DNA from: a virus
IMG/VR virus record: IMGVR_UViG_3300021091_005443
Span: 1-28,261 of that record
Length of the DNA stretch: 28,261 bases
Direction: 5' to 3' (one strand)
The translations under genes were made by a program, and so were the position numbers. Numbering within the stretch: position 1 is the stretch's first letter; each line of letters opens with the position of its first letter. This document shows, one piece after another, positions 6,545 through 26,637 of this stretch. The notes beneath the pieces are model-generated. The model was not told where the DNA came from. It saw nothing but the letters and a program-made list of their open reading frames with translations, and did no database searches.

Positions 6545-6546
6545 AC

Positions 6547-7197: not shown

Positions 7198-7214
7198 TTT
7201 GAGGTGGTTATACA

Positions 7215-8672: not shown

Positions 8673-8676
8673 ATAT

Positions 8677-10128: not shown

Positions 10129-11453
10129 AACTAGCCTATGATTTTTATGACCACAGAAGAAATGAACCTTTTCCTAATTTAACACCTGCCATAGTGCGCG
10201 ATTACTACAGTAACAATCCGGTGAGTGAAATATTTCAGTATGATCCACCTTCACCTTTCAAGTTAAAAACTACATTAGGACAATTTTGGCAATATCTTCC
10301 TAAAAAGTTTGATGTGGTAACTTTGTCAGAAAGCTTTAATGAAAATGATTTTTTTCTCTACACATTTGGTCTATATGGGTATCATAGAGACCTATTGATT
10401 TCTTATGGAAACAAAGAGTCAGCTAAAGGAGAAAAATATAATGTGTCATTTGTGAGAAATGTTTCTGAAAAAGCTGTAGAATTATGCAAACAAGGAAAGT
10501 TGAAATTTATAGTGAACTACGCACATGAACCTTTCAATGATTTTGAATTTTTAGAACTGTTCCAACGAGACTTGGATCTATTAGGATTATCCTTGAAGAA
10601 TGATTTTGTGTTTTTCATTGGATCCTCCAATTTTTTTGACAGATACCCAGCAGCCGATGGATACAACTTCATTTGTGAAAACACACCCATGACTGATTGT
10701 GCCAATGTGTTGGAGGAAATGAAACTTCGTCCTATCCCTTCGGTTGGGTTCAAAAGTGCACTTATTCACGAACATGAACTGGATAACCCCAGGACAAAAC
10801 ACTTCATTACCATGAACAAGTCTCATAAAAGTCATAGAATTACTTTGGGATGTTTGTTTGAAAGTAGAAATATGTGGGACAAAGTATACGCCAGTTTTCT
10901 TCACACAGGAAATGATAATCCTGTGAAAACTGGAGATGAGGTGTTGGATGTTGAATTACATGAAGCCAGAGAACGCCTATTTTCTAAAATGCCTATTGTT
11001 TTGGATTCTCATGGGTATGATCCAAATGATATTCCAACCACTCGGTCATTCAAAAAACCGTTGTATCTGAATTCCTACATATACATTGTAACTGAAACAA
11101 TTTTCAATGATGATGTGTTCATTTCAGAGAAGATATGTAACCCTATCATTGTGTTACAACCATTCATTGTCATGGCCGGGCCACATTATTTGAAATATCT
11201 CAGAAAACTAGGATATCAAACATTTCATGGATTCATTGATGAAAGCTATGATGATGAAATAGACAATGGTAGACGTATGCATAAGATTTGCAAGGAGATT
11301 GAAAGAATATCCAATTTACCATTGAATGACCTTCATGAATGGTATCAATCCATTAAACCCATTGTTTTACACAACAGAAATTTATTGTCATCTAAATATG
11401 CACATAGACCTTTATATGTGAATACCTTGGAAACCCTTTATAATGCAATCTAG
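10125..11453 (+). CDS. GT10/fucosyltransferase-like glycosyltransferase
   Basis: A 442-residue protein. The N-terminal 300 residues are unfamiliar. Residues 318-375 carry a pattern resembling the nucleotide-sugar-binding region of alpha-1,3-fucosyltransferases (GT10): YIVTET, then FISEKICNPI, QPFIVMAGPHYLKYLRKLGY and a DESYDD acidic end. No signal peptide or membrane segment is apparent, so it would act in the cytoplasm. A second protein of the same plan is encoded at 17244. The donor and acceptor are unknown. It is coupled to the carbamoyltransferase by ATGA, and its end overlaps the next gene by 11 bases. Confidence 0.65.
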   Translation: MKLAYDFYDHRRNEPFPNLTPAIVRDYYSNNPVSEIFQYDPPSPFKLKTTLGQFWQYLPKKFDVVTLSESFNENDFFLYTFGLYGYHRDLLISYGNKESAKGEKYNVSFVRNVSEKAVELCKQGKLKFIVNYAHEPFNDFEFLELFQRDLDLLGLSLKNDFVFFIGSSNFFDRYPAADGYNFICENTPMTDCANVLEEMKLRPIPSVGFKSALIHEHELDNPRTKHFITMNKSHKSHRITLGCLFESRNMWDKVYASFLHTGNDNPVKTGDEVLDVELHEARERLFSKMPIVLDSHGYDPNDIPTTRSFKKPLYLNSYIYIVTETIFNDDVFISEKICNPIIVLQPFIVMAGPHYLKYLRKLGYQTFHGFIDESYDDEIDNGRRMHKICKEIERISNLPLNDLHEWYQSIKPIVLHNRNLLSSKYAHRPLYVNTLETLYNAI

Positions 11454-12384
11454 AATATTAATAACAGGCGGAGCGGGTTATCTTGGTTCAGTTGTTGCTG
11501 AACACTTTTTAAGTTTGGGCTTTCCCGTCACCGTGTTGGACAATCTTCATTACAAACAGTTGTCTTTGTTGCACCTGTTCAAACATACACAGTTTAAGTT
11601 TGTGTTGGGAGATGCTCGTAACAAGGAATTGTTGCAACGTTTGGTAAAAGAACATGATGTGATAATTCCACTTGCTGCTGTGGTGGGAATGCCCGCATGT
11701 GACAAGAATCCTCAATTAGCTATGGATTTGAATTTTCATCAGATTGAAAATGTTCTGGAAGTGTTGGAAGACCATCAAAAACTAATACTTCCCAACACCA
11801 ACAGCCAGTATGGCTCTTCCAGTGACATCATCACTGAGGAAAGTCCATTCAATCCTTTGTCTTTGTATGCCAGAACCAAATGTGATGCTGAAAATGCCAT
11901 GTTGGCAAAAGGTAATGGGGTGTCCCTACGTCTTGCCACTGTGTTTGGTGTGTCACCAAGAATGCGGCAAGATTTACTGGTGAATGATTTTGTGTACAAG
12001 GCATTGACAGATGGTTATTTGGTGTTGTTTGAAGCTGATTTCAAACGTAACTACATACACATACGAGACATTGCTCGAACCTTTCAATTCATCATGGAAA
12101 ACTATGACAAATGCAAAGGTCAAGCTTTCAACGTGGGATTGTCCACTGCCAATTTAAGTAAACTGGAACTGGCAGAAAAAATCAAGCAGTATATTCCTTC
12201 TTTGGTTATCAAGCAAGATAATTTCAAAGAGGATTTTGACAAAAGAAATTACATTGTATCCAATCAAAAAATTGAGCGATTGGGTTGGTTTCCTGTTTTT
12301 ACATTAGATTATGGTATTCAACAACTTACAGAAGCATACAAACTCATCATCACACACAACAATAGGAATTTCACAAATCTATGA
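11443..12384 (+). CDS. NAD-dependent epimerase/dehydratase (extended SDR)
   Basis: A 313-residue Rossmann enzyme. GGAGYLG (9-15) binds NAD(P), D58 lies in the GDARN segment, LAAVVG is the third strand, and the catalytic Y142-x3-K146 is intact in LYARTK. NTNSQYG precedes it in the position of the catalytic Ser/Thr strand. FKRNYIHIRDIARTF is the typical sugar-nucleotide epimerase segment. The likely substrate is an NDP-sugar, but epimerase and dehydratase activity cannot be told apart by eye. It starts 11 bases before the previous stop and ends in an ATGA overlap with the following gene. Confidence 0.88.
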   Translation: MQSRILITGGAGYLGSVVAEHFLSLGFPVTVLDNLHYKQLSLLHLFKHTQFKFVLGDARNKELLQRLVKEHDVIIPLAAVVGMPACDKNPQLAMDLNFHQIENVLEVLEDHQKLILPNTNSQYGSSSDIITEESPFNPLSLYARTKCDAENAMLAKGNGVSLRLATVFGVSPRMRQDLLVNDFVYKALTDGYLVLFEADFKRNYIHIRDIARTFQFIMENYDKCKGQAFNVGLSTANLSKLELAEKIKQYIPSLVIKQDNFKEDFDKRNYIVSNQKIERLGWFPVFTLDYGIQQLTEAYKLIITHNNRNFTNL

Positions 12385-12821
12385 CTGAACGCCGCTATTT
12401 GCACACCTTGGGTGATTTAATTGACCGTTTGAGCATTGTGCAGTTGAAAGAAGTATTCATTCCTGAGTACAAGAAAGAATATGCTCAAGAAATTGAAGAT
12501 ATTGTTCATGACATCCAATTGATTTTAAATGATGTAGAAGAACCCATCACAGCTGACACCATTCGTGCTATTGTAGTAGTTTCACAAATGAATCTTCATA
12601 TCTGGCATAATGAATCCAATTATCGTCGGGGGATCCGAGATGGAAACAACCTAGAACTGACACACGGATTAAATGGCATTCGTAATACTGCAAAGAATGT
12701 CATCCAGGAAGTTGTTGGTGGTAGAAAAGACTATAAGGTAGATTGTTTAGCAGCTGACTTTAAAGATTGGGAAGTAAGTTGGAATGGCAATACAAGAAAC
12801 CAAGAAACGAACGACGATTAA
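12381..12821 (+). CDS. Conserved helical protein of unknown function (HTLGDLIDRLSIVQLK type)
   Basis: A 146-residue protein starting with HTLGDLIDRLSIVQLKE, a segment I associate with small uncharacterised proteins found in phage and bacterial glycan clusters (possibly the DUF4254 group). It is acidic and appears fully helical, and has no cysteine pair or nucleotide-binding motif. It is encoded between an epimerase and a DUF2061 gene, joined by an ATGA start and a 38-base overlap at its end, so it probably serves the same pathway. I do not recognise a catalytic activity. Confidence 0.65.
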   Translation: MTERRYLHTLGDLIDRLSIVQLKEVFIPEYKKEYAQEIEDIVHDIQLILNDVEEPITADTIRAIVVVSQMNLHIWHNESNYRRGIRDGNNLELTHGLNGIRNTAKNVIQEVVGGRKDYKVDCLAADFKDWEVSWNGNTRNQETNDD

Positions 12822-12996
12822 AGCGATTACGTGGAGAGCTGTTGCAATTGTAAATTCATGGGTGATACTGAGTTTATCATTTAGCACATCCAATCTCACG
12901 AATGCTCTGTTAATGAACTTAACTGGGTTTTTCGCATTTTATTTTTTTGAACGTGTGTGGAGCAAAATTAATTATGGTAGATACTACCAGGAGTAA
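12784..12996 (+). CDS. Second DUF2061 small membrane protein
   Basis: A 70-residue protein with KAITWRAVAIVNSWVILS and FFERVWSKINYG, the DUF2061 signatures, and two hydrophobic stretches (about 15-35 and 40-55). It is a distant paralogue of the protein at 2363: the two share the WR/YR turn and the ER(V/I)W end but differ elsewhere. The gene overlaps the previous one by 38 bases and has GGAAG upstream. Having two DUF2061 genes in one phage segment is notable. The family function is unknown. Confidence 0.8.
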   Translation: MAIQETKKRTTIKAITWRAVAIVNSWVILSLSFSTSNLTNALLMNLTGFFAFYFFERVWSKINYGRYYQE

Positions 12997-12998
12997 TT

Positions 12999-14006
12999 AT
13001 GGAATTGAGAGGTAAAAACATCCTTGTGACGGGTGCCAATGGTTTAGTCGGGAATCCTACTGTTCGTAAATGTTTAGAAGCAGGTGCCAACAAGGTTTAT
13101 GCTGTAGACCTTCGTTTTTCAAAAGAATTACAACAATGGGCGATAGATTGCAGCGGGCAACTTCAATTAGTTGAAACAGACCTAACGTATTTGGAAAATT
13201 GTGAGAGATTGTTTCAAACGGCCATGGGCCGATGGGCCCAAGATAAGATTCATGTAGTATTGCACATTGCAGGTATCAAAGGATCACCATCCAGAACAGC
13301 TAAATCGCCAGCAGATTATTTGTTCCCTATGATGATGTTTAATACCAACATGATGAAAGCCTCTTTTGATGCACAAGTAGAATGGTTCGTCTATCTTTCT
13401 TCTGTGGGTGTGTATAGCCCAGCGGACGTGATGTACGAAGATAGTGTATGGGAAACCATGCCATCTAAAAATGATTGGCATCCTGGATGGTCCAAACGCA
13501 TGGGAGAATTGGCATTGGATGCTTTAAAAATACAACATGGTTGGGATAATTGGACCATACTGCGTCCATCAAACATTTATGGTCCCAATGATAATTTTTC
13601 TCCTGACGCCACGGTAATAAGCTCTAACATCTGGAAGTTAACAGGAACTAATTCTGAGGACATGATTTGTTGGGGTGACGGTTCTTCCAAGAGAGATTTT
13701 GTGTTTAGTGAGGATGTGGCTGATGCTACTATTGATGCTGTGAAAAATGAAGTTCGTGATGTGGTAAATTTTGGATGTGGTGAAGCAGTCTCCATCAAAG
13801 ATACTATTGAAACTATTGTGTCTGAATATCAGTCCATCACAGGCAATAGGAAAAACATCATCTGGGATTCTTCAAAGCCAAATGGAGATAAGTTGCGGTG
13901 TTTAAGCACAGAAAGACAACAGAAGTACAATTTGCTACCAACAACCTCATTAAGAGATGGTATACGAAAAACTTTGCAGATATTTCTAGGACCTAGTCCC
14001 AAGTAG
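12999..14006 (+). CDS. NAD-dependent epimerase/dehydratase lacking the catalytic Tyr
   Basis: A 335-residue extended SDR resembling GDP-L-fucose synthase-like phage proteins. TGANGLVG (11-18) binds NAD(P), D37 ends the second strand, IAGIKG (90-95) and YLSSVGVYSP (132-141) follow the fold, and LRPSNIYGPNDN is clear. The expected YxxxK reads HPGWSKRMGE: the Lys (K166) is present, but the position four before it is Pro162, not Tyr. The enzyme may use another acid/base, catalyse a different reaction, or bind only. Its ribosome site AGGAG is strong. The downstream SDR at 14788 shows the same loss. Confidence 0.83.
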   Translation: MELRGKNILVTGANGLVGNPTVRKCLEAGANKVYAVDLRFSKELQQWAIDCSGQLQLVETDLTYLENCERLFQTAMGRWAQDKIHVVLHIAGIKGSPSRTAKSPADYLFPMMMFNTNMMKASFDAQVEWFVYLSSVGVYSPADVMYEDSVWETMPSKNDWHPGWSKRMGELALDALKIQHGWDNWTILRPSNIYGPNDNFSPDATVISSNIWKLTGTNSEDMICWGDGSSKRDFVFSEDVADATIDAVKNEVRDVVNFGCGEAVSIKDTIETIVSEYQSITGNRKNIIWDSSKPNGDKLRCLSTERQQKYNLLPTTSLRDGIRKTLQIFLGPSPK

Positions 14007-14014
14007 GGAGAGGA

Positions 14015-14022
14015 CATAAATA
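14015..14022 (+). promoter_or_regulatory. Possible T4-like late promoter (CATAAATA)
   Basis: CATAAATA differs by one base from the T4 late -10 consensus TATAAATA and lies in one of the few true intergenic gaps (14007-14044), 23 bases before the oxygenase start. A DsbA-like late-transcription protein is encoded in this window. No -35 is expected for this class. The match is short and the region is AT-rich, so this is a weak call. Confidence 0.35.
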
Positions 14023-14044
14023 AAAACAAAGGAGATGAAGTAGT

Positions 14045-14770
14045 ATGAATATAAAGCAACAATCTTTAATTGAAAAAGGCTTCTATGTGGGCAAAGTAGA
14101 AGAATTGGTAACAGATTTAGATGAATTCAATCAGATGTGTGATTTTGTGATGAACTTCTCCTACACTGATGATAACTGGGATTGCTATTATCCGGTGAAA
14201 CCTGCTCCTGAAACACCAGCAGAAATAAAGAAGATGTATTATGATAATCCAGAATGTTGGCCATCTGTCATAAAAATGCATGAAGTTGAAGAAAGAAAAA
14301 TCTTACAGGACAAATACAAACTATCTTATGACCAAAAATGGTATCGTTTGTTAAATGATCCTCAGCCGGTAGCAGGTGTAAAATTTAAATATTTTCAAAA
14401 ACTATCTGAGAGATTTATCGCAGAAGCATATCCAGAAATGGATTTAAATTCTGCACATCATAACAATGTGTTTGCATTGTACGATGACAAGGATTGTTAT
14501 ATTGACCGACATAAAGATGGGCAAACAGGTAAGTTTTGTGGAATCATCATCTACTTAAGTCCTGAAGATACCTGGAAGGATGGCGGCGGCGAATTTCTAT
14601 GTGGCACAGACACTAACAACAATCCTGTGTCGGATAAGGTTATCCCAGTCAGAGGAAATTATGTGGTATTGGATTTCATGCGTCATGATGCCTGGCATGA
14701 GGTTTTACCTGTAAAGAATGGATTTAAACGTTGGTCTTACTTAGATTTCGTCCGAGAGGAAAAAAATTAA
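14045..14770 (+). CDS. 2-oxoglutarate/Fe(II)-dependent oxygenase
   Basis: A 241-residue protein with the double-stranded beta-helix signature of 2OG-Fe(II) oxygenases. The iron ligands are H156 and D158 in RHKDG and H218 in AWHEV; the 2-oxoglutarate-binding Arg is R229 in FKRWSY. GGGEFLCG and the LDFMRHDAWHEV segment match the 2OG-FeII_Oxy prolyl-hydroxylase-like group common in T4-like phages. It would hydroxylate a protein or small molecule in the cytoplasm using O2. The substrate is unknown. GGAG lies ten bases upstream of the ATG, a little far but usable. It sits between two SDR genes. Confidence 0.85.
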   Translation: MNIKQQSLIEKGFYVGKVEELVTDLDEFNQMCDFVMNFSYTDDNWDCYYPVKPAPETPAEIKKMYYDNPECWPSVIKMHEVEERKILQDKYKLSYDQKWYRLLNDPQPVAGVKFKYFQKLSERFIAEAYPEMDLNSAHHNNVFALYDDKDCYIDRHKDGQTGKFCGIIIYLSPEDTWKDGGGEFLCGTDTNNNPVSDKVIPVRGNYVVLDFMRHDAWHEVLPVKNGFKRWSYLDFVREEKN

Positions 14771-14787
14771 CTTAAAGGTGAATTGTC

Positions 14788-15762
14788 ATGATTGATAAAG
14801 ATTCTAGAATATTAATTACCGGTGGCGCAGGATTAGTTGGTCAAAATCTAACAAAATATCTTGTCGAACAAGGCTACAAAAACATCCGAGTGCCTATTCA
14901 TAGAAGAAGGCCCAGAGAACAATATGAGGGTGTTTTTTATTGGGATGCTGAGCTAACTGACTATAACAGTTGCTTGAAAATTACTGAAAATGTAGATGTG
15001 GTGATACACGCGGCCGCCTCTACTTCTAATGCAGTGGATACCGTCGTAGATCCTCTTGCTCATGTCACACCTAATGTGGCCATGAACAATTTTCTGATTG
15101 ATGCATCATATCGTAACAAAGTGAAAAAGTATATTTTCCTATCTTCCAACACAGTATACCCTCCTAAAGGAGATGAGCCTGTAGTAGAGACAGACTTTCT
15201 TTTTGATGCTCCCTATCCAGTTTACTTTCCAGTAGGATGGATGAAACGATATGCTGAAGTGCAATGTGAATTGTATGCCAAGTATCTGCCCAATCCTATG
15301 ACCACAGTAGTAATTCGACCAGCCAATTTATATGGTCCTCATGACAAGTATGATTTCAACAAGTGCCATGTAACACCTGCCACTATCAGAAAAGTTGCTG
15401 ATAACATGAATCCCATCCCGGTTTGGGGTGATGGTTCTGAACTTCGTGACTTGTTGTATATTGATGATTTTGTGGAAGCCATTGAATTAATCATGAGAAA
15501 ACAAGATAGTTATGAGGTATTCAATGTAGGCTCCAATACTGTGTATTCAGTGAATGAGGTGTTGAACACCATGAAGCGTTTGGTTGGTAATGATAATCCT
15601 GTAACCTATGTACAGGGTAAGCCATCTATGATTCCTGTCAGAAAAATCAATTCAGATAAAATCAAGAGTCAACTTGGATGGGAAGCCAAGACTTCTTTGG
15701 ATGAAGGGTTAATGAAAACTTACAATTGGTATATGCAACACCGTGGAGAATTTCAGAGATGA
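14788..15762 (+). CDS. NAD-dependent epimerase/dehydratase lacking the catalytic Tyr
   Basis: A 324-residue extended SDR. The first residues include RILITGGAGLVGQN (7-20), then VIHAAAST (72-79), FLSSNTVYPP (117-126) and VIRPANLYGPHDKYD. The catalytic-helix Lys is K153 in GWMKRYAE, but the position four before it is Val149; the nearest Tyr is Y146, seven before. This is the same arrangement as in the SDR at 12999, so the two may be a related subgroup. NDP-sugar epimerase or reductase activity is likely but not certain. A ribosome site AAAGGTG is present. The gene ends in an ATGA overlap with the SGNH-like gene. Confidence 0.83.
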   Translation: MIDKDSRILITGGAGLVGQNLTKYLVEQGYKNIRVPIHRRRPREQYEGVFYWDAELTDYNSCLKITENVDVVIHAAASTSNAVDTVVDPLAHVTPNVAMNNFLIDASYRNKVKKYIFLSSNTVYPPKGDEPVVETDFLFDAPYPVYFPVGWMKRYAEVQCELYAKYLPNPMTTVVIRPANLYGPHDKYDFNKCHVTPATIRKVADNMNPIPVWGDGSELRDLLYIDDFVEAIELIMRKQDSYEVFNVGSNTVYSVNEVLNTMKRLVGNDNPVTYVQGKPSMIPVRKINSDKIKSQLGWEAKTSLDEGLMKTYNWYMQHRGEFQR

Positions 15763-16721
15763 GCAACAGAGAAAATTATTTTGGTCAGGATTTCACGAAG
15801 TTCAAAACTCGGGATCCTAAAGTAACACGGGGAATAGCATTTGGAGGATGTTCATTTACTTGGGGACAAGGGTTGTATTACTACAGTAATCTACCTACAA
15901 TAAAAGAACCTATGCCAAATCATTTTGCTCGATGGTTGGTTAAAAGTGCTCATATCAGCTTCATGGAATCAGTTCGATATCCTAGACTGGTAGCTAAACA
16001 TTTCAATACTTTCGAAGAAGTACATCCTTATAATGGAGGATCGGATGAATCTGCTATAGATTTCTGGACCAGAACATTTGATCCTACCAGAGATGGTGTA
16101 CGTCACATGAATGATGACGGTACCTATAGCGTGTCTGACCCCAATTATGATTACAAAGAGTTTGCCTACTTTGTGTATCAATTCACACAACCTGAAAGGT
16201 CCAGATTTAAATTCACCTACCAGGGAAAACAATATCATTTCGTGGTGCACTACGCCAGAAATCAATCTGCTCCAGTAGTAGCAGCTTCAGGTGGAACTGG
16301 AAATGTGGTAGATGATTTTTCTGCTTTCAAAGGATGGTTACTAGAAAACAACATGACTTATGAGCAGTGGGAAGATTTGCATAGAAAAAATGTGGTGGCT
16401 GATGTGAAGACCATGTTGATGAATTTTGAAACCCATGGTGTGAAAACCAGGATTCTTGTGTGGCCAAATGAAATGGTGAATTATGTTTTAGCAGATCCTT
16501 GGATGAAAGAGCGGTTTGTGACACTATATTACAAAGATATGCCGGTGCAATCTTTTGCTGTTCTTATGGATTTACCAGAAATGAAAATTGATACAGACCA
16601 TCAGCATTTCATCACAACACCAGGAGACCATCATCCTTCATTGCTTTGTCATCAGGCGGTGGCTGAGTCATTGATAAGAACCATGGATGAAAACTACATT
16701 CACCGACCACATTATGAATAG
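15759..16721 (+). CDS. SGNH/GDSL-like phage protein (GCSFTWGQG)
   Basis: A 320-residue protein with GGCSFTWGQG at residues 29-38, the block I nucleophile segment of SGNH hydrolases (S32). A GDHHPSLLCH segment near the C terminus resembles the block V Asp-x-x-His. Such phage proteins are widespread but largely uncharacterised; they may be esterases acting on glycan acyl groups. I chose the ATG at 15759 (ATGA with the previous stop, GGAG upstream) over an in-frame ATG at 15726. It is one of three SGNH-like genes in the window (also 24035 and 24661). The next gene begins inside it. Confidence 0.68.
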   Translation: MSNRENYFGQDFTKFKTRDPKVTRGIAFGGCSFTWGQGLYYYSNLPTIKEPMPNHFARWLVKSAHISFMESVRYPRLVAKHFNTFEEVHPYNGGSDESAIDFWTRTFDPTRDGVRHMNDDGTYSVSDPNYDYKEFAYFVYQFTQPERSRFKFTYQGKQYHFVVHYARNQSAPVVAASGGTGNVVDDFSAFKGWLLENNMTYEQWEDLHRKNVVADVKTMLMNFETHGVKTRILVWPNEMVNYVLADPWMKERFVTLYYKDMPVQSFAVLMDLPEMKIDTDHQHFITTPGDHHPSLLCHQAVAESLIRTMDENYIHRPHYE

Positions 16722-17247
16722 TCCACAGTATACTCCTTATAAAGATGCACTGACCAACTCCATGAACTTATTGGCATCCAATAATTTTTTATTTGTAGGC
16801 CAACAGATTGTGTACGCTGGAAATCCTATGAGCACAACCTTAGGTGATGTTTCCAAAGAAAGGATGATTGAACTTCCAGTCATGGAAGAAACACAGATGG
16901 GGATGTCTTTAGGTATGGCCATGGCAGGAGATAAGGTGATAACTTTTTATCCACGTTGGGATTTCATTATTCTCGCAGCCAATCAACTGATTAATCATGT
17001 GGACAAGTATCAGATGATGACAGGAAAAAATTTAACATTGCTGATTCGTTTGGGAAAGGGTTCAGACAAACCATTAGATCCTGGCCATCAACACAAAGGA
17101 AACTATTTCTCCGAGTTTTCTTCAATGTGTAAAAATATTAAGTTTCATAACTTAACTGAATGGTCTCTTATTGAACCTGCGTATGCTGAAGCTGCACAAG
17201 GTGGAATTCATGTTCTTGTAGAATATCCAGAACTGTATTATAAATGA
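16687..17247 (+). CDS. ThDP-enzyme Pyr-domain subunit (E1-beta/transketolase-like), minimal
   Basis: A 186-residue protein matching only the pyrimidine-binding domain of E1-beta subunits of 2-oxo acid dehydrogenases and related enzymes. ELPVMEETQMGMSLGMAMAG corresponds to the PxxEqxxvGxaxGxAxxG segment, with E67 as the Glu that activates the thiamine aminopyrimidine. WDFIILAANQLINHVDKY and a LLIRLGKG segment follow as in the family. The C-terminal transketolase domain of normal E1-beta (about 325 residues) is absent. The matching PP-domain subunit is encoded at 18967, two genes downstream. The pair probably forms one enzyme active on a keto-acid or keto-sugar; the substrate is unknown. No good ribosome site is seen; an alternative start is 16714. 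Confidence 0.78.
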   Translation: MKTTFTDHIMNSPQYTPYKDALTNSMNLLASNNFLFVGQQIVYAGNPMSTTLGDVSKERMIELPVMEETQMGMSLGMAMAGDKVITFYPRWDFIILAANQLINHVDKYQMMTGKNLTLLIRLGKGSDKPLDPGHQHKGNYFSEFSSMCKNIKFHNLTEWSLIEPAYAEAAQGGIHVLVEYPELYYK

Positions 17248-18419
17248 AGAAATTTTGTTTTGTTCAGCATTGTCTAGATAGAACTAAGGAAAATTTTGAA
17301 AACTTTTGGACAGTTGAAGCTGACAAAGAGGTTTTCCAAGAGCTACCTTTTTCTTTAAGAAAGTTTACACAATTTCAACAAGTTCACTTTCATGATATAG
17401 ATTCTGATACCACATTGTTTGTAACAATGGAAGATTTCAAACATGAGGATTATCAAATAGAAAGTTTGAAAAAAGCCTTGAAGGGAAAATCGTTTAAAAA
17501 AGTTTTTTATGATTTTTCAACTTATGATAATCAAGACATCGCAGAAGAAATTTTAGACAAATTTGAAGGCATTGTGGATACACCTTCATTTTTTATCACG
17601 AAAAATCTTATATCCACAAGAAAAAATCATTTTTGGTTTGAAGTGTTGTTTCGACATTACATTGAAAATACTCCAGCCAATGATGAAGCTTTCAAGGCTT
17701 TTCGTTTAATTCGAGATGTTCAGACTCCTTTTTTAAGAAAGCACAAAGGAATGTACCATGTAGGACATATTCGGTTTCATAAAATACAACTTTTGGAATT
17801 TCTGTATCAGAACAAATTTCTAGAGGATTTTCTATGGGGAGCTACAGGTACTGATTATGATCCTGGATTATTTCCAGAGTTAGTACCTAAGAAGTTTCAA
17901 GATGAATTTAGGAAATTTCAAATTGTAAACCAACTACCTCACTTCTATGATTATGAAAACTATGACCATTATAATCAAAGAGGAAACAGTTTCAATTTCG
18001 TTACATATCTAGATACATATTTTGAAGTAGTAGCTGAAACAAAATTTTATCACTTCAAGAATCAAAGTGGTGCATTGGACACAGAAAAAGGCTGGAACAA
18101 CATCACAGAAAAGGTGATGCGACCAACATTTATTGGTCATCCGTTTATTCTTTTATCTAAGCCTAACACCATTAAAACTTTAGAATCTAAAGGGCTAACC
18201 TATCGTTTAGATTTTTGGAATCATAATTATGACATTATAGAGGATGACCAGGAAAGAATGCGTGCAATTCAGTCTACTATATCGAACATTCTTCATCTAA
18301 GTAAAAGAGAATTGAATGACTTTTACCGAGAATACAGCTTTGTGACCAGACATAACTATAGTAGAATGTATCACGAATTATATTCTGAACAAATTTTACA
18401 AATTTATAATGAGGCTTAA
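17244..18419 (+). CDS. Second GT10-like glycosyltransferase family protein
   Basis: A 391-residue protein with an unfamiliar N-terminal half and a C-terminal half of the same plan as the protein at 10125: YFEVVAET (near 260), NITEKVMRPTFIGHPFILLS (286-305), then a NTIKTLESKGLTYR helix and an acidic segment (IIEDD). This E-K-x-x-[RN]-P pattern resembles the fucosyltransferase-type (GT10) nucleotide-sugar-binding region. There is no signal peptide. Its position between the two ThDP subunit genes suggests it belongs to the same sugar pathway. The start overlaps the upstream TGA (ATGA). Confidence 0.58.
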   Translation: MKKFCFVQHCLDRTKENFENFWTVEADKEVFQELPFSLRKFTQFQQVHFHDIDSDTTLFVTMEDFKHEDYQIESLKKALKGKSFKKVFYDFSTYDNQDIAEEILDKFEGIVDTPSFFITKNLISTRKNHFWFEVLFRHYIENTPANDEAFKAFRLIRDVQTPFLRKHKGMYHVGHIRFHKIQLLEFLYQNKFLEDFLWGATGTDYDPGLFPELVPKKFQDEFRKFQIVNQLPHFYDYENYDHYNQRGNSFNFVTYLDTYFEVVAETKFYHFKNQSGALDTEKGWNNITEKVMRPTFIGHPFILLSKPNTIKTLESKGLTYRLDFWNHNYDIIEDDQERMRAIQSTISNILHLSKRELNDFYREYSFVTRHNYSRMYHELYSEQILQIYNEA

Positions 18420-18970
18420 TGATGTCCAATTATAAAAAGAAAAAATGGAATGACTACACAGTAAGTTATCTGAACACATTTCAGGAGTGGGTTCCTGTGT
18501 ATGTACCTTCCGTGTACCAAGAATATAGAGGAGAGATATTTACCACTTATCATAACACAGAACATCCTGTGAATAAGCTGGTGCCTTTGGACGGCGCCAT
18601 TCATTCAAGATTTTCCAAGTCCTATCGAGGCGTTTTACGTGGGTTACATTATGACTCAAAAACTTGGAAATTAGTTCAAGCTCTAGTTGGAGACATCTAT
18701 TTGGTTGTTTTGGATGTAAGAGAAGGTTTATCCACCTATGGCAAGTGGGAGTCCTATATAATTTCAGAGAAAACTCGCCATCAAGTATTGATACCTCCTG
18801 GGTTCGCTAATGGCCACTACGCATTGACAGATTGTATATTTCATTATAATTTGTTCTATTCAGGAAATTATGTAGATGAATCTCAACAAAAAGTCATAAA
18901 GTGGAATGATAGTCGTTTCAATATAGAATGGCCAACCGATACTCCTATTTTGCAAAAGAGGGACAAATGA
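18419..18970 (+). CDS. rmlC: RmlC-like dTDP-4-dehydrorhamnose 3,5-epimerase family protein
   Basis: A 183-residue cupin close to RmlC in length. YRGVLRGLHYD (69-79) carries the catalytic-base His (H77), K84 follows in TWKLVQ, and GDIYLVVLDVREGLSTYGKW matches the conserved strand-turn-strand. IPPGFANGHYAL and the IEWP segment near residues 169-172 complete the pattern. RmlC epimerises C3 and C5 of dTDP-4-keto-6-deoxyglucose on the way to dTDP-rhamnose; related enzymes act on other dTDP-keto-sugars. RmlA, RmlB and RmlD are not recognised here, so precursors may come from the host. The start could be 18419 or 18422; GAGG is upstream. It overlaps the next gene by four bases. Confidence 0.87.
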   Translation: MMSNYKKKKWNDYTVSYLNTFQEWVPVYVPSVYQEYRGEIFTTYHNTEHPVNKLVPLDGAIHSRFSKSYRGVLRGLHYDSKTWKLVQALVGDIYLVVLDVREGLSTYGKWESYIISEKTRHQVLIPPGFANGHYALTDCIFHYNLFYSGNYVDESQQKVIKWNDSRFNIEWPTDTPILQKRDK

Positions 18971-19596
18971 TTACTAACATTGAAAAATATCCAGATGTTC
19001 GCAATCCTAGCCACACTGTTGATGAATTGATTGCTTTTGAAACTGATATAGTACAAGAATGGGAAACTGGAAAGATTCGAGGTCCAGTGCACCTATCTCA
19101 TGGAAATGAAACTAGTTTAATTGAAATTTTTAAAAAAATAAAATCCACGGATTGGGTGTTTAGCACTTGGAGGTCACACTATCATGCTTTGCTCAAGGGG
19201 ATTGATCCTGCTTGGATAAAAACAGAAATTTTACAAGGCAAATCCATCACAATTTGTAATATTGATGAGAAATTCTACTCATCAGCTATAGTAACAGCCA
19301 CTCTTCCTATAGCTTTAGGTGTGGCTCAAGCTCTGAAAAAGTCAAACAGTTCAGACAAGGTTTGGTGCTTCATAGGTGATATGTGTTTTGAAACTGGAAT
19401 TTTTTATGAAGTGCATAAGTATGCTAGAAATTTCAATCTGCCACTACACTTTGTTGTGGAAGACAATGGAGTATCCACATACACACCCACTGAAGCCACT
19501 TGGCAAAAGAAAAGAGAAGTCCCAAATGATGTTCTATACTACTCCTATAAATCTAAGTACCCTCACTACGGTTCTGGGAAATGGGTGGCATTTTAA
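18967..19596 (+). CDS. ThDP-enzyme PP-domain subunit (E1-alpha-like), minimal
   Basis: A 209-residue protein corresponding to the diphosphate-binding domain of E1-alpha subunits. VHLSHGNETS (41-50) matches the start of the E1-alpha core. TWRSHYHALLKG (67-78) holds the active-site His pair region. GDMCFETG (137-144) through EDNG (N167) is the ThDP-Mg motif GD-x(~28)-N. Normal E1-alpha has about 330-360 residues, so this is a reduced form, like its partner at 16687. The start at 18967 forms ATGA with the rmlC stop and has AGAGGG upstream. The partner genes are separated by a glycosyltransferase-like gene and rmlC, tying this enzyme to sugar chemistry rather than central metabolism (inference). 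Confidence 0.8.
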   Translation: MITNIEKYPDVRNPSHTVDELIAFETDIVQEWETGKIRGPVHLSHGNETSLIEIFKKIKSTDWVFSTWRSHYHALLKGIDPAWIKTEILQGKSITICNIDEKFYSSAIVTATLPIALGVAQALKKSNSSDKVWCFIGDMCFETGIFYEVHKYARNFNLPLHFVVEDNGVSTYTPTEATWQKKREVPNDVLYYSYKSKYPHYGSGKWVAF

Positions 19597-20684
19597 TGTC
19601 TGAAAAACTGAAAAAGTATGTATGCAAAAATCCATTTACCTACCTGGATGTCCAACATAGCGGTCAATGGATTTGTTGTCCCAGCTGGGCTCCAACTAAT
19701 ATACGGTTGGATACACCTGTCTGGCAAGAAGACCTGTTGGAGAATTGGAAAGGTCCCATTGTACAAGATATCAGAAAATCTGTTTTGGATGGTAGCTATA
19801 GACACTGTGACCATAAAATTTGCCCGGCTTTGTCTAAACTGATTCATACCAATGAAGTCCCAGAAGAATTCATGGAAAAAGAGGAGTTCATGAAAATTAA
19901 TGAACTCACAACCATTGAAGATGTGGAAAATTTTCAAGGTCTTCCAGAATACATTCTGTTTGGATTTGACCGTAGTTGCAACCTGAAGTGCCCTTCTTGT
20001 AGAAAGACACAAATTCCCAACGATGATTTAGATTCACCCATACACAAGTATAAAGAAAATTTGTTAAAACAAATTGAGGAGAAATTTGCTTCTAACGTTA
20101 AGCGATTGATGATAACAGGAAGCGGTGACCCTTTCTATTCAAAACTCTATAGAAACTACTTGATTGATTTCAATCTCAAGAAATATCCTAAATTGAAGGA
20201 GATCCATGTGATAACCAATGGAAATCTTTTGAATGAAAAAATGTGGATGAGCTTGGGAGCTAGACCTTTCATCAAACGTGTGGAAATTAGCGTAGATGCT
20301 GGAACAAAAGAAACCTATGAAAATGTTACCAGATTGAACGGTGACTGGGACAGGCTGATTGACAATTTGAAGTTCCTTAGTACCCAACATAGTATAACGC
20401 ACTTCATAACCTCTATGGTGGTCAGTGAATATAACTATAAAGAAATGGAAACTTTCTACGACCTGGTTATTGACATTTTTAAAAACTCACCTATTCACCT
20501 GGGCATACATTATCGCCAGCACGTATATTGGGAAACTGGTGCCTATACTAAAGATGAAGTGGATTCTGTGTCTGTGTTTAACAACACCCATGACAAATTT
20601 GAAGATTTCAAACAAGAGTTATTAAAAGTACACAATAAACCATTCGTAGGACATAATTTTCACCATTTGTTAAATAACACTTGA
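19596..20684 (+). CDS. Radical SAM protein with extra N-terminal cysteines
   Basis: A 362-residue radical SAM enzyme with C128-N-L-K-C132-P-S-C135. MITGSGDPF takes the place of the usual GGEP segment (GSGDP), and VITNGNLL and VEISVDAGTKETYE follow as in SPASM/twitch proteins. Cysteines before the core (C10, C27, C28, C71, C76) suggest an auxiliary Fe-S cluster. The TAATG junction with the preceding gene fits the start at 19596; an in-frame ATG at 19581 is also possible. It differs from the first radical SAM protein (7215) in length and flanks, so the substrates probably differ. It is the last gene of the modification block; the ligase promoter begins at its stop codon. Confidence 0.85.
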   Translation: MSEKLKKYVCKNPFTYLDVQHSGQWICCPSWAPTNIRLDTPVWQEDLLENWKGPIVQDIRKSVLDGSYRHCDHKICPALSKLIHTNEVPEEFMEKEEFMKINELTTIEDVENFQGLPEYILFGFDRSCNLKCPSCRKTQIPNDDLDSPIHKYKENLLKQIEEKFASNVKRLMITGSGDPFYSKLYRNYLIDFNLKKYPKLKEIHVITNGNLLNEKMWMSLGARPFIKRVEISVDAGTKETYENVTRLNGDWDRLIDNLKFLSTQHSITHFITSMVVSEYNYKEMETFYDLVIDIFKNSPIHLGIHYRQHVYWETGAYTKDEVDSVSVFNNTHDKFEDFKQELLKVHNKPFVGHNFHHLLNNT

Positions 20685-20709
20685 CAAACAACATATATGG
20701 TGTTAGATT
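20681..20709 (+). promoter_or_regulatory. Sigma70-type promoter with extended -10, upstream of DNA ligase
   Basis: TTGACA (20681-20686, a perfect -35), a 17-base spacer ending in TGT, then TAGATT (20704-20709). It overlaps the stop codon of the preceding gene. Transcription should start near 20716, about 20 bases before the ligase ATG at 20736. The architecture is the same as at 3532 and 23344. The -10 is also the outer part of a 13-bp inverted repeat (20704-20745). Confidence 0.82.
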
Positions 20710-20745
20710 CCATAGTAACTCTAGGAGGAGAAACTATGGAATCTA
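20704..20745 (+). repeat. 13-bp perfect inverted repeat spanning the ligase -10, ribosome site and start codon
   Basis: TAGATTCCATAGT (20704-20716) is exactly complementary to ACTATGGAATCTA (20733-20745). The 16-base loop contains the ribosome site AGGAGGAG, and the ligase ATG (20736-20738) is inside the right arm. TTTTT follows at 20746-20750. RNA reading through from upstream would form this hairpin and bury the start codon. RNA started at the embedded promoter begins near 20716 and would lack nearly all of the left arm. It could alternatively be a protein-binding operator. Confidence 0.8.
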
Positions 20746-22049
20746 TTTTTATGGCGCTGGCAGCTACTTCCAGCCGGTTGGAAAAAGAAGCCATTTTGAA
20801 ACAACACCATGCAGTACAAGGAGCAGCTGCGGATGCAACACTCCGGCGTGTGTTGTTTCTTGCTCTTGACCCATATACACAATTTTATATTCGAAAGATT
20901 CCCACCTACACCAACACAACTCTGAAACACACCAAGAGTACCATGAGTTTGAATGGTGCCTTAGATAATCTGAACAACATCATCAATCGTGTGGTGACAG
21001 GTAATGCTGCCATCAATCATCTGAAAATCATTTTGGAAAGTGTCACGGCTGATGATGCCAAGGTGATTGAACGCATCATTGAGAAGGATTTGCGCTGTGG
21101 TGTGTCTGAGGCCACTGTGAACAAGATTTGGCCTGGATTGATTCCCACCTATCCTGTGATGCTGGCATCTGGCTTTGATGAAAAAATCATGAACAAGATG
21201 ACTTATCCTGCCTATGTGCAATTGAAGCTGGATGGGATGCGATTCAATGCCATTGTGAAGAATGGAGCAGTGGAGTTTCGTTCTAGAAACGGTAAGCAAA
21301 TTGACTTGCTGGGACATCTGGAACAGGAATTCTTGGAGTTGGCAGGAAACAATACAATAGTGTTTGATGGTGAACTGGTGGTGTTGGATGGCAATGGCAT
21401 CATGAATCGTCAGAAAGGCAATGGCATCCTGAACAAGGCTGTGAAAGGCACCATCACAGACAAGGAAGCTGGTATGGTTCATGCCACCATCTGGGATGTC
21501 ATCCCATTCACAGATTTCCAGACTGGACATTGTGACACACCCTATGGTGACCGATTCAACATGCTGGAACAGATGGAGTTGCCTGTTCGCATCTCGTTGA
21601 TTGAAAACATTGAAGTGGCTACTGAGGATGAAGCACATCACATCTTCGAGGAATATTTTCAGAAGGGTGAGGAGGGTATCATCTTGAAGGGCATCAATGC
21701 TCCCTGGGAGGACAAGCGTGTGAAACACCAGGTGAAGTTCAAGGGAGAATTGGAATGTGATTTGAAGTGTGTGGATTGGCAGGAAGGGACTGGCAAGAAT
21801 GTGGGCAAGTTGGGTGCCTTGGTGTTGGAGTCTGATGATGGAGTGGTGAAAGTGAATGTGGGTTCTGGCTTCACTGATGAACAACGTGATAAATACACAA
21901 GAGAAGAAACAGTAGGTAAGATTGTGGCTGTGAAGTACAATGCCAGAATTCAGGACAAAAAGACTTTGCAGCACAGTTTGTTTCTTCCAGTATTTCTTGA
22001 ACTTCGTGAAGATAAGGCAATTGCTGATGCTTCATCTTCCATCAAGTAG
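20736..22049 (+). CDS. ATP-dependent DNA ligase (T4 gp30-like)
   Basis: A 437-residue ligase that seals nicks in duplex DNA using ATP. The nucleotidyltransferase motif I is KLDGMR (K164 is adenylated). FRSRNGK is motif Ia/III-like, FDGELVV is motif III, KGEEGIILK is motif IV and KHQVKFK is motif V. An N-terminal helical DNA-binding region covers about residues 1-140 and the OB domain comes after about 345. The length is near that of T4 gp30 (487). I use the ATG at 20736, which has GGAGGAG upstream; the in-frame ATG at 20697 lies inside the promoter. Its translation is probably controlled by the 13-bp hairpin described at 20704. Confidence 0.93.
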   Translation: MESIFMALAATSSRLEKEAILKQHHAVQGAAADATLRRVLFLALDPYTQFYIRKIPTYTNTTLKHTKSTMSLNGALDNLNNIINRVVTGNAAINHLKIILESVTADDAKVIERIIEKDLRCGVSEATVNKIWPGLIPTYPVMLASGFDEKIMNKMTYPAYVQLKLDGMRFNAIVKNGAVEFRSRNGKQIDLLGHLEQEFLELAGNNTIVFDGELVVLDGNGIMNRQKGNGILNKAVKGTITDKEAGMVHATIWDVIPFTDFQTGHCDTPYGDRFNMLEQMELPVRISLIENIEVATEDEAHHIFEEYFQKGEEGIILKGINAPWEDKRVKHQVKFKGELECDLKCVDWQEGTGKNVGKLGALVLESDDGVVKVNVGSGFTDEQRDKYTREETVGKIVAVKYNARIQDKKTLQHSLFLPVFLELREDKAIADASSSIK

Positions 22050-22588: not shown

Positions 22589-23347
22589 ATGTCCAGAAAA
22601 AAGCGCCTTAAATTGGTATCTTCCCAAACGTACATTTTTCAAGAAGAGCAGGAATCTAAACACAAAGTTCAGCTTGTTGATTTAAAAGAAATCTGGGCTC
22701 TCACAGAAAATCAGGAGAATTTTTTCAATTACTATCGTAAAGGACACAAAGCCATTCTATGTCATGGAGTGGCAGGGACAGGAAAAACCTACATTGCCAT
22801 GCACAGCGCTTTCAAGGAGATATTAGAAAATTCCAATTATAATAAAGTTGTAGTTGTACGTTCAGCAGTGCCATCTCGGGATATTGGATTTCTACCAGGC
22901 AATGAAAAAGAAAAAGTGGAAGTGTATTCACAACCCTATCAAGAAATTTGCGCAGATTTGTTCCCTAGATTTGGAGAACGTGCTTATAACAAACTGAAAG
23001 AACAAAGTTTGATTCATTTCATGGTCACTTCCTATGTTCGTGGATTGACCTTGGACAACTGCATCGTGATTGTGGATGAGGCTCAAAACATGAATGACAT
23101 GGAACTGAACAGCATCATGACCCGAGTGGGACAGAACACCAAAATTATTTTCTGTGGGGATTTCCGTCAAACAGATTTACAAAAACGTTCTGATATGTCA
23201 GGATTGAAGAAGTTCATGGCCATCGCCAACCATATGCCTTCCTTTCGTCATGTAGAGTTTGGTGTAGATGACATTGTTCGTGGACCCTTGGTGAAAGAGT
23301 ATATTATGGCTAGAATGATGTATGAGGATGTTCTTGTGGCCTCTTGA
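22589..23347 (+). CDS. phoH: PhoH-like P-loop ATPase
   Basis: A 252-residue PhoH-domain protein. GVAGTGKT (60-67) is Walker A, RSAVPSRDIGFLPGNEKEK (91-109) is the diagnostic PhoH motif, and IVIVDEAQN (159-167) is Walker B. GDFRQTD near residue 190 is also typical. PhoH proteins are ATPases related to superfamily 1 helicases and are among the most common T4-like cyanophage genes. Their role in infection is unsettled, and phosphate control has often been assumed. No promoter is visible between the upstream terminator and the ATG, and the ribosome site is weak, so expression may depend on readthrough or a promoter I cannot see. Confidence 0.93.
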   Translation: MSRKKRLKLVSSQTYIFQEEQESKHKVQLVDLKEIWALTENQENFFNYYRKGHKAILCHGVAGTGKTYIAMHSAFKEILENSNYNKVVVVRSAVPSRDIGFLPGNEKEKVEVYSQPYQEICADLFPRFGERAYNKLKEQSLIHFMVTSYVRGLTLDNCIVIVDEAQNMNDMELNSIMTRVGQNTKIIFCGDFRQTDLQKRSDMSGLKKFMAIANHMPSFRHVEFGVDDIVRGPLVKEYIMARMMYEDVLVAS

Positions 23348-23372
23348 CAATAATATAATATTGTGTTATATT
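23344..23372 (+). promoter_or_regulatory. Sigma70-type promoter with extended -10, upstream of the exonuclease
   Basis: TTGACA (23344-23349), a 17-base spacer ending in TGT, and TATATT (23367-23372). It overlaps the phoH stop. The predicted start of transcription, seven bases after the -10, falls at about 23379, which is the A of the exonuclease ATG. This suggests a leaderless mRNA; there is no ribosome site between the -10 and the ATG. Confidence 0.82.
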
Positions 23373-23377
23373 ATTGT
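23347..23377 (+). repeat. 12-bp perfect inverted repeat over the exonuclease promoter
   Basis: ACAATAATATAA (23347-23358) is exactly complementary to TTATATTATTGT (23366-23377), with a seven-base loop. The repeat covers the end of the -35, the spacer and all of the -10, ending one base before the ATG. It could be an operator for a dimeric repressor or, in readthrough RNA, a hairpin blocking the start. Its arms differ in sequence from the repeat at 20704. Confidence 0.75.
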
Positions 23378-23378
23378 T

Positions 23379-24038
23379 ATGAAAACATTTCTACATGACC
23401 CAGTAACAATAGAAACCATTTCTGCTGTGAACCAGGAAGATGGAACCAGAGCCTATCAGACACCTGAGGGTAGGCTCTATCCATCTGTCACCACAGTGTT
23501 GGCTGAACACACCAAGAAAGGCATCCAGGAATGGAGGACCCGGGTAGGGGAGGTGGAAGCCAACAAAGTGTCTCGACAAGCTGCCACGTGGGGTACAAGA
23601 TTTCATACCATCACAGAAAAATATCTTCAGAACAATTTGACTGGGGGTGATTTATCACTTTGGGATTATGAAATGTTCAAGGTGGCCAATCCTGTGTTGG
23701 ATAGAATTGACAACATTCGAGCACAAGAAGTGGCATTGTGGTCCCATCATCTACGTTTGGCAGGACGTGTGGATTGTGTGGCTGAGTTTGATGGCAAGTT
23801 GAGTGTGATTGACTTCAAGACAGCACGCCGTGAGAAAGATGTAGAACACATTCAACACTATTTCATGCAGGCAGCTGCTTATGCCATCATGTTCGAGGAA
23901 CGAACCAAGATACCAGTGAACCGTTTGACCATTATGATAGCAGTATCAGATGGATTTATGCAAGTGTTTGAAAGTAAGAGAGACCACCATGTTGAACAGC
24001 TTTTATATTATCGGGACTTGTATGAGGTAATGAAATGA
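23379..24038 (+). CDS. PD-(D/E)XK exonuclease (RecB/Cas4/MGME1-like)
   Basis: A 219-residue nuclease. GTRFHTITEKYL (72-83; H76) matches the GxxxHxxxE-like motif, AGRVDCVAEFDG (128-139; D132) is motif II, and SVIDFKTARR (142-151; D145, K147) is the D-x-K catalytic site. Q164 in MQAAAYA is the conserved Gln of the RecB group. T4-like cyanophages encode a similar exonuclease beside other DNA-processing genes. The start at 23379 is set by the promoter: an earlier in-frame start at 23322 would lie inside phoH, upstream of the -10. It ends in an ATGA overlap with the next gene. Confidence 0.87.
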   Translation: MKTFLHDPVTIETISAVNQEDGTRAYQTPEGRLYPSVTTVLAEHTKKGIQEWRTRVGEVEANKVSRQAATWGTRFHTITEKYLQNNLTGGDLSLWDYEMFKVANPVLDRIDNIRAQEVALWSHHLRLAGRVDCVAEFDGKLSVIDFKTARREKDVEHIQHYFMQAAAYAIMFEERTKIPVNRLTIMIAVSDGFMQVFESKRDHHVEQLLYYRDLYEVMK

Positions 24039-24661: not shown

Positions 24662-25749
24662 TGAAATACATTGTAACCGCGGGTTGTTCATTCACCCGAC
24701 AAGGAACAAGAATAGGTATCAATGGTACTGAATACAATTTCATGAATGAATATAAGAATATGTGGAAGTGGCCACATTTCATTCAAGAGATGTATCCAGA
24801 GCACACTGTATTAAATTATGGTAACCCCACTAATGATAACAATTTGATAGCACAAAGTGTGTTGTATGGTGTGTCCAAGTTGCTAAAGGACAATGTTCCT
24901 GCGGAGAATATAAAAGTTATCGTACAATGGTCAGCTTGGTCCAGAAATTCATTTTTTGTATCCAAAAACAAACAAAGAGAAAAAAATTATGAGTTACGAA
25001 ATATTCAAGGAACATATCTGAATTCTGAAACAGACCATGATTATTTTGCACATCTTAATGATTTCATTACAGATAAAACTCACATTGGTGAGCATGGATA
25101 TTATGTTCTATCTGGGGGATACGGAGTGAATCATGTTTTGATTCCAGCCATAGAATTCTGGGAAGATTATGTGGATCATGTCTTTTCTGCGGATGAGCGG
25201 TTGATAGAACACTTCAAAAACATTTTACTAGTTCAGAACTTTTGTGAGATTCACAAGATTCCTTGTTTGTTTTTGAATATGCACAACAACTTTTCTTTTG
25301 AATACACCAATGACAGTTCTTCTCAGTCGGGTTGGCCTAGATGGAAACCAGAAAACAGTCAAAAGACTGAGGGTTGGCACGTTATTGAAGAAAAATATAT
25401 TCCTAATACCTGGGAAAACGACCACAAAGAAAGATTCACTTCTCCTTATGTGAAGTTTTTGTATGATATGATTGACTTGAAAAATTTTTGGTTTTACATA
25501 GAGCCAGGTGTCACAAAGTTTGGTGGCATCGTGGAATGGACTATTAAAAACTACAACTTTCAAGAAATGTCAACAGATGAACATCCTAACATCATATGGA
25601 TGGAAGCCATTCCTCTACTAGATGCAGGCAAGCACAACAAAGAAGATATCATCAGGTGGTTAGATAACACTGTGTGTTGGCAACATACCTCTGCATTTAT
25701 GTACAAGAAGTTTGTACAGAATGAATTGAAACCTTTCTTAGATAAATAA
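24661..25749 (+). CDS. SGNH-like phage protein (AGCSFT)
   Basis: A 362-residue protein beginning MKYIVTAGCSFTRQG, with the block I-like nucleophile S10 in AGCSFT. LNYGNPTNDNN resembles block II/III with Gly and Asn, and IKVIVQWSAWSR the following strand. A clear block V is not obvious by eye. I use the ATG at 24661 (TAATG junction, GAGGA upstream) rather than an in-frame upstream start at 24637. It is related in plan to the protein at 15759 (GCSFT). The last codons with the stop form GATAAATAA directly upstream of the tmRNA. Confidence 0.65.
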   Translation: MKYIVTAGCSFTRQGTRIGINGTEYNFMNEYKNMWKWPHFIQEMYPEHTVLNYGNPTNDNNLIAQSVLYGVSKLLKDNVPAENIKVIVQWSAWSRNSFFVSKNKQREKNYELRNIQGTYLNSETDHDYFAHLNDFITDKTHIGEHGYYVLSGGYGVNHVLIPAIEFWEDYVDHVFSADERLIEHFKNILLVQNFCEIHKIPCLFLNMHNNFSFEYTNDSSSQSGWPRWKPENSQKTEGWHVIEEKYIPNTWENDHKERFTSPYVKFLYDMIDLKNFWFYIEPGVTKFGGIVEWTIKNYNFQEMSTDEHPNIIWMEAIPLLDAGKHNKEDIIRWLDNTVCWQHTSAFMYKKFVQNELKPFLDK

Positions 25750-25759
25750 TTTTGTAGGA

Positions 25760-25822
25760 TGGTAGTAGAACAGCTTGAATTGAAACATAGCTTGGACAGG
25801 GGTTCGACTCCCCTCACCTCCA
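25760..25822 (+). other. tmRNA acceptor piece (tRNA-like 3' part)
   Basis: This segment would be the mature acceptor RNA. It ends with the T arm (25798-25814), the 3' acceptor strand CACCTCC and unpaired A25822, after which the host must add CCA. TAGCTT-GGAC (25788-25797) provides the 3' half of helix P2 and its junction. Its true 5' end lies somewhere between about 25750 and 25775 and cannot be fixed from sequence. Confidence 0.85.
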
Positions 25823-25844
25823 CTTGATGTACCGTAGGTCTTTC

Positions 25845-26013
25845 GGGGGTGCTTGGTTTCGACAGGTTAAGGATTAGATGAGAGAGCTACCCGAAAGGCG
25901 ACTGCCGTAAGCAGAGCAAAAACATTAACAGGCACATATAATACGCCTCTTGCATTAGCTGCCTAATTAGGTAGCATGCCGGGTTCGGGGTTTCCCTGGG
26001 AACAGAAAACCCC
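25845..26013 (+). other. tmRNA coding piece
   Basis: It starts with the 5' acceptor strand GGGGGTG and the D-like loop, then P2, the tag frame, and a 7-bp stem holding the end of the tag and its stop: GCTGCCT (25958-25964) with AGGTAGC (25969-25975), one wobble, loop AATT. This matches helix 5 of E. coli tmRNA. GGGGTTT (25987-25993) and AAACCCC (26007-26013) form a final helix; GTTC (25983-25986) with GAAC (26000-26003) would interlock with it as an H-type pseudoknot. The next gene starts ten bases later. Confidence 0.85.
25916..25966 (+). other. tmRNA proteolysis-tag reading frame
   Basis: From the resume codon GCA at 25916 the frame reads AKTLTGTYNTPLALAA and stops at TAA (25964-25966). 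The terminal ALAA is the form recognised by ClpXP and related proteases (E. coli tag ends YALAA). At 16 residues it is longer than the E. coli tag, whose variable part differs entirely. Confidence 0.85.
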
Positions 26014-26022
26014 ACTAAATTT

Positions 26023-26637
26023 ATGCTAATAGACATTCCTGAAAACACCGAAAATATCAATATTTTGTTGTCAGGTGGTGCAGACAGTACCCTGCTCACC
26101 TATTTGCTTTCCAAGCAAACTACCAAAAAAATCATTTTACACACTACAGGATCCTCAGATGTGGTGCATAAAAAAATCGTAGAACCTATCGTAACCCACT
26201 TGAAAACAATTTTTGGTGATAGATATCAAATCAATAAAATCAAAAAGAAAGATTTCTGGATTCGAGATGCAGTAAACTTTATTCTGTCCGTGTATCCAGG
26301 AGTGGTGTTGACTGGTTGCAATAAAGTGGTGACACATTTCACACCTACAGTTTACCTTCGTGGAGATACTCCTCCTGTACGAGGTTCTGTGTCTAGACCA
26401 GAACATCTGCGTCCTTTCATTGACATGGATAAAGTTGATATTTTGAAAATCTATCAACAGGAAAACATTTTAAATTTACTGAGTCTAACAAAATCTTGTG
26501 GTTTATCTAAGTTACCGCGCTGTGAGGGGTGCTATTTTTGTATGGAAAGAGCCTGGGCAGCCAATGTACTTGGGATAAATGATATAAATACTATAGAACC
26601 TCAGACCACTATGGAAATCAATCATGAAAACATTTAA
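26023..26637 (+). CDS. QueC-like PP-loop ATPase
   Basis: A 204-residue protein. LLSGGADST (15-23) is the PP-loop that binds ATP. Near the C terminus, T-K-S-C159 is followed by C167-x2-C170-x2-C173-MER, matching the zinc site of QueC (TxSC...CGxCxxCxxR). RPFIDMDKVDILKIY fits the helix before it. QueC converts 7-carboxy-7-deazaguanine to preQ0, used for queuosine and, in some phages, for modified guanines in DNA. QueD, QueE, FolE and a DNA transglycosylase are not in this window, so the role is uncertain; it is slightly shorter than QueC (about 220-230). No ribosome site precedes the ATG. The gene begins ten bases after the tmRNA 3' helix. Confidence 0.72.
   Translation: MLIDIPENTENINILLSGGADSTLLTYLLSKQTTKKIILHTTGSSDVVHKKIVEPIVTHLKTIFGDRYQINKIKKKDFWIRDAVNFILSVYPGVVLTGCNKVVTHFTPTVYLRGDTPPVRGSVSRPEHLRPFIDMDKVDILKIYQQENILNLLSLTKSCGLSKLPRCEGCYFCMERAWAANVLGINDINTIEPQTTMEINHENI

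Follow-up and report, generated by a model that had tools for sequence, protein, structure and literature searches.

A promoter-embedded hairpin that probably insulates a phage DNA ligase gene from read-through translation

An inverted repeat at the start of a phage DNA ligase gene is, in our assessment, very likely to act at the RNA level, as an insulator contained within the ligase promoter. Read-through into ligase would come from the co-directional sugar/cofactor gene block upstream. Transcripts of that block would contain both arms of the repeat, and in this RNA the start codon and part of the ribosome site would be locked in a stem, leaving ligase untranslated. Polymerase at the embedded host-type promoter would start where the left arm ends or immediately beyond it, and the resulting message, being without that arm, would be translated. 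Ligase output would thus be set by its own promoter, whatever the upstream transcription. Related phages largely keep, re-evolve, or drop the hairpin according to whether messages could run in from upstream.

Results

Gene layout and anatomy of the ligase promoter

The window analysed here is the whole of virus record IMGVR_UViG_3300021091_005443 (28,261 bases). Its + strand carries the main listed open reading frames from the window start through 20684, and the sugar-nucleotide and cofactor genes at 5415-20684 (IMPDH-like, carbamoyltransferase, epimerases, dTDP-sugar isomerase, E1-type dehydrogenase, and radical SAM) make up a long co-directional block. The features around the start of ligase are as follows.

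19581..20684, + strand, radical SAM gene (367 aa), which ends the sugar/cofactor block co-directional with ligase
20681..20686, + strand, -35 element TTGACA, retained by nearly all close relatives
20704..20709, + strand, -10 element TAGATT, with a TG extension at 20701-20702; forms the outer left arm
20704..20716, + strand, left arm TAGATTCCATAGT, complete in read-through RNA only, with covariation support
20716..20717, + strand, predicted transcription start, placed 6-7 nt past the -10
20722..20730, + strand, Shine-Dalgarno region AGGAGGAGA, in the hairpin loop
20733..20745, + strand, right arm ACTATGGAATCTA, which includes the start codon
20736..22049, + strand, ATP-dependent DNA ligase (437 aa)
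20746..20750, + strand, T5 run (Ile-Phe codons ATT TTT), 3' of the stem; possible weak terminator tail

The first-pass annotation had proposed a perfect 13-bp repeat with the -10 in its left arm, the ribosome site in its loop, and the ATG in its right arm, belonging to a host-type promoter of a DNA ligase gene. All of this was confirmed. The arms TAGATTCCATAGT and ACTATGGAATCTA (20704-20716 and 20733-20745) are complementary at 13 of 13 positions, and the ribosome site AGGAGGAG sits within the 16-nt loop between them. The predicted promoter consists of TTGACA, a 17-nt spacer, and TAGATT with TG ahead of the -10, and the TGA stop of the radical SAM gene overlaps its -35. The gene product is a T4-type DNA ligase (phrog_114, E 4e-133) whose reading begins at ATG 20736. 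An in-frame ATG at 20697 has no evident ribosome site, and the proteins of relatives align from 20736.

Two perfect 13-bp repeats whose arms are separated by 3-30 nt occur in the window, against 0.015 expected from dinucleotide-preserving shuffles of the window; the second, at 6919, lies within a gene. An Rfam search at the hairpin gave nothing above the gathering score (let-7 appeared at chance level, E 0.97), and a second search gave no match here. The T4-type late motif TATAAATA was not found upstream of ligase; its single copy in the whole window, at 26583, is the number expected by chance.

The window also carries a tmRNA gene at 25712-26057, called by ARAGORN at 25733-26057 with the tag GTYNTPLALAA and matched in Rfam by beta_tmRNA (89 bits, 25712-26023) and tmRNA_permuted (112 bits, 25761-25966). 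The phage-borne tmRNA perhaps hints at a betaproteobacterial host.

Predicted folding and opening of the ligase start

RNA of 20690-20760 was predicted to fold at -24.8 kcal/mol (z -5.4), which no shuffle equalled, whereas without the left arm the fold was ordinary (z about -0.6 to -1.0). We calculated the cost of freeing the Shine-Dalgarno and AUG as model values at 37 C. Read-through RNA required 18.1 kcal/mol, RNA beginning at the predicted promoter start required 6.7 kcal/mol, and none of 200 upstream shuffles attained the former value. When the start site was scanned, the opening cost collapsed for starts at or beyond about 20712, and the expected start is 20716-20717. T4 gene e, used as a positive control, gave 15.6 kcal/mol for read-through and 4.5 kcal/mol for promoter RNA by the same measure, and T4's own ligase, gene 30, which is without such a hairpin, gave 4.2 kcal/mol.

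These model values strongly favor, in silico, the earlier proposal that read-through RNA would fold and block ligase translation, with a predicted cost comparable to that of T4 gene e. The companion proposal, that RNA from the embedded promoter stays open, held in part: the predicted cost drops to 6.7 kcal/mol, but a weak local hairpin at the ATG, pairing CUAUGGAA with UUUUUAUGG, can still form. The ATG in promoter RNA would therefore be much more open, not fully open.

Conservation and covariation of the arms

Ligase relatives were found in many IMG/VR contigs, all of them metagenome sequences, and the ligase promoter is retained in nearly all close relatives. A near-identity DNA search among named phages gave no match, and the ligases of named phages are less than 60% identical to that of the window. 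A search of IMG/VR with the exact hairpin pattern returned true hairpins at ligase starts only; one further locus, L091, matches the pattern without the promoter/ATG hairpin anatomy and was rejected. A scan of genome contigs gave one distant locus.

Covariation was assessed in 16 sequences (15 distinct) picked for the presence of the hairpin. Among these, 91% of cells were paired, and the inner 8 pairs were unbroken in all 15 distinct sequences. The first-pass annotation had suggested looking for compensatory changes in related phages, and pairing proved to be kept through them. The pair ATAGT/ACTAT has become ATGGCATC/GATGTCAT in L009 and ATGATATC/GATATCAT in L013 and L034, and TAGATT/AATCTA has become TATATT/AATATA in L027; the arms have also changed from TTCCAT/ATGGAA to TTCAT/ATGAA in L011 and L023. 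Cells changed on both sides numbered 18, compared with 5.7 in shuffled data, and in a swap test on all 27 distinct close sequences, not selected for the hairpin, left and right sides from the same sequence gave a mean energy of -12.9 compared with -9.2 (sd 0.54) for permuted partners, with 0 of 20,000 permutations as low; the kinship of the sequences inflates both tests.

A perfect dyad across a promoter could also be a DNA operator, at which a dimeric repressor would cover the -10 and the start by binding the two arms. We regard this as very improbable. The spacing between the core arms ranges from 13 to 16 nt among relatives, which breaks helical phasing. Wherever a pair of the inner 8 departs from Watson-Crick, the sense RNA has G-U, with no instance of A-C. 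Furthermore, L017 and L035 show the same effect with arms of unrelated sequence.

Presence of the hairpin and orientation of the upstream genes

Co-directional ligases mostly carry the hairpin, and it is present where the sugar block points toward ligase (the window, L034, L041, and L082). L084, with an inverted block separated from ligase by two co-directional genes, retains the hairpin. Seven close relatives (L003, L026, L039, L008, L010, L014, and L015) keep the promoter and have no downstream ATG hairpin. In three of these (L003, L026, and L039), genes for a dTDP-sugar isomerase, an E1-type dehydrogenase, and epimerases adjoin ligase and are encoded on the other strand, facing away from it, so that homologues of parts of the 5415-20684 block lie inverted beside ligase. 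Two of the opposite-strand genes are 64-69% identical to their window homologues on the ligase strand, and the L003 ligase is 96% identical to the window ligase. The other four (L008, L010, L014, and L015) have a co-directional gene upstream; ahead of the -10 they carry a G+C-rich hairpin that has the -35 in the loop and ATTTT after it.

All seven relatives thus look shielded from read-through. The first-pass annotation had counted retention of the promoter with loss of pairing against its proposal. That combination literally occurs in these seven relatives, but each has a divergent block (three) or a terminator-like hairpin (four) upstream, and the losses therefore fit the insulation model rather than break it. 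The mean read-through penalty was 10.6 kcal/mol for hairpin leaders, 1.1 kcal/mol for divergent ones, and 0.5 kcal/mol for those with a terminator. The cost differences of 19 exposed and 7 shielded (divergent or terminator) loci were separated by a Mann-Whitney test (p 2e-5), in which kinship was uncorrected and the classes were post hoc, having been defined once it was known which leaders had no hairpin. Of 6 independent, well-supported pairs on the ligase tree, 3-4 agreed with this association and none disagreed (p 0.125), these pairs being too few for significance. A further point against the insulation reading is that promoter-leader modules probably recombine along with the upstream genes.

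Four more co-directional relatives are without homologous arms. Two of them (L017 and L035/L036) have other, unrelated hairpins with the same effect, one (L037) has a marginal hairpin, and one (L030) has none; L037 and L030 are exceptions to the pattern and count against it. In L035/L036, CTCCTGAAG in the promoter spacer pairs with CTTCAAGGAG at the ribosome site.

The TTTTT directly 3' of the 13-bp stem in the window raises the question of an intrinsic terminator, by which the hairpin and T5 run would end read-through RNA in the first ligase codons and spare promoter RNA. The terminator-like hairpins borne instead at the equivalent locus by L008, L010, L014, and L015 are in keeping with this explanation. 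However, the stem is A+T-rich, and its distance to the T run varies from about 0 to 6 nt in relatives while the pairing of the ATG is constant. The hairpin is kept despite a broken T run in L023 (ATCTTT) and L032/L033 (ATTTTC), and the T run is kept without the hairpin in L003, L008, and L026, so that the run shows no tie to the hairpin among relatives. A terminator scanner did not flag the hairpin, which its 8-nt loop limit would exclude anyway. As a G+C-rich stem with an adjoining U run kept in relatives was not found at the ligase start, termination is an unlikely explanation of the window hairpin, and we retain the block on translation as the preferred reading.

Other promoters of the same class

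We compared the ligase start with 29 other starts in these genomes that have a promoter of the same class and a ribosome site. At 25 of the 29, the difference in opening cost was below 4 kcal/mol, so promoters of this class do not generally produce the hairpin effect as a by-product. The effect is not confined to ligase either, since the largest difference, 19.9 kcal/mol, was found at a phage peptidase-family gene (phrog_459; L216, on the L036 contig). There, an embedded-promoter hairpin (G016:7846-7911) has 12-bp perfect arms AAATGGTCTCCG/CGGAGACCATTT, the former in the promoter spacer and the latter extending up to the ATG.

These figures also bear on whether the pairing at ligase is a functionless by-product of promoter and coding constraints, given that an A+T-rich -10 and a conserved N-terminus restrict the choice of sequence. 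The small differences at most other starts, the scarcity of such repeats expected in the window by chance, and the results of the covariation and swap tests all speak against it, and we give this explanation very little credence.

The exonuclease gene of the window has a conserved TTGACA promoter (23343-23381) whose -10 ends about 6 nt 5' of the ATG, with homologues in L002, L004, L008, L009, L011, L014, L017, L026, L030, and L034; by its position, this -10 implies a putatively leaderless mRNA. An imperfect 17-nt inverted repeat (23342-23382) covers this promoter and the ATG in the window. It was considered as a second case of the hairpin and set aside, as it is not clearly retained in relatives. 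In a distant clade (L045, L049, L051, L056, L061-L063, L069, and L071), the ligase -10 likewise ends about 6 nt 5' of the ATG, which suggests that the ligase message there may be leaderless. A palindrome, GCTATATTATAGC, is centred on the -10 and repeated in several promoters (L008, L010, L220, L229, and L230).

Discussion

The ligase start of this phage and the orientation of its neighbours form a natural experiment, in which the element accompanies a neighbouring block that faces ligase and is missing where the block is turned directly away from it. Read-through insulation thereby becomes a selective force on phage gene order and mosaicism that can be tested. Any benefit to the phage would presumably lie in the dosage or timing of ligase. 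Should the upstream genes be expressed late, a replication gene would be shut off at that stage by the device, opposite to its use in T4. It is quite possible, although we do not lean toward it, that these environmental T4-like phages as a group generally insulate ligase from upstream transcription, with lineages using one or another of several interchangeable means: hairpins at the start codon whose arms co-evolve, unrelated hairpins at the Shine-Dalgarno, terminator hairpins enclosing the -35, or divergent neighbours.

Intrinsic terminators that insulate neighbouring co-directional genes serve the same purpose, preventing the next gene from being expressed by upstream transcription. They halt transcription, whereas the ligase hairpin would block translation instead. 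Close relatives seem to use such terminators as an alternative solution.

In Bacillus subtilis, a large hairpin at sigG has been proposed to keep read-through RNA of the spoIIGA-sigE operon from being translated, whereas RNA made from the sigG promoter does not form it (cited in PMC5942855). The read-through-hairpin logic is the same as at the phage ligase; sigG is, however, a chromosomal developmental gene under a sporulation sigma factor, without homology to the phage case.

The closest parallel is T4 gene e, whose logic the first-pass annotation had invoked, together with soc, 49, I-TevI, and segB of T4 and mobE of phage Aeh1. In these genes, long early transcripts form a hairpin whose left arm contains a late promoter (reviews PMC3014915, PMC2988022). 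The comparison is apt. As in gene e, read-through RNA would hide the Shine-Dalgarno and/or the AUG, RNA from the embedded promoter would be without the left arm, and the predicted energies are nearly equal (18.1/6.7 here and 15.6/4.5 in gene e). At the window ligase, pairing of the start region with upstream sequence in long transcripts is supported by predicted structure and covariation, and the location of the promoter in or over the 5' arm by sequence and conservation, with a predicted start site. On the other hand, in the T4 cases the promoter is the phage late one, TATAAATA, and the effect is to delay late genes, whereas the window has the host-type TTGACA/TAGATT and a DNA ligase. Unlike the window ligase, the ligase gene of T4 itself has no such hairpin. 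The phages described here thus extend a classic T4 control device, in uncultured phages, to host-type promoters and a replication enzyme; what is new is the replication gene, the host-type promoter, and the dependence on the orientation of the neighbouring genes.
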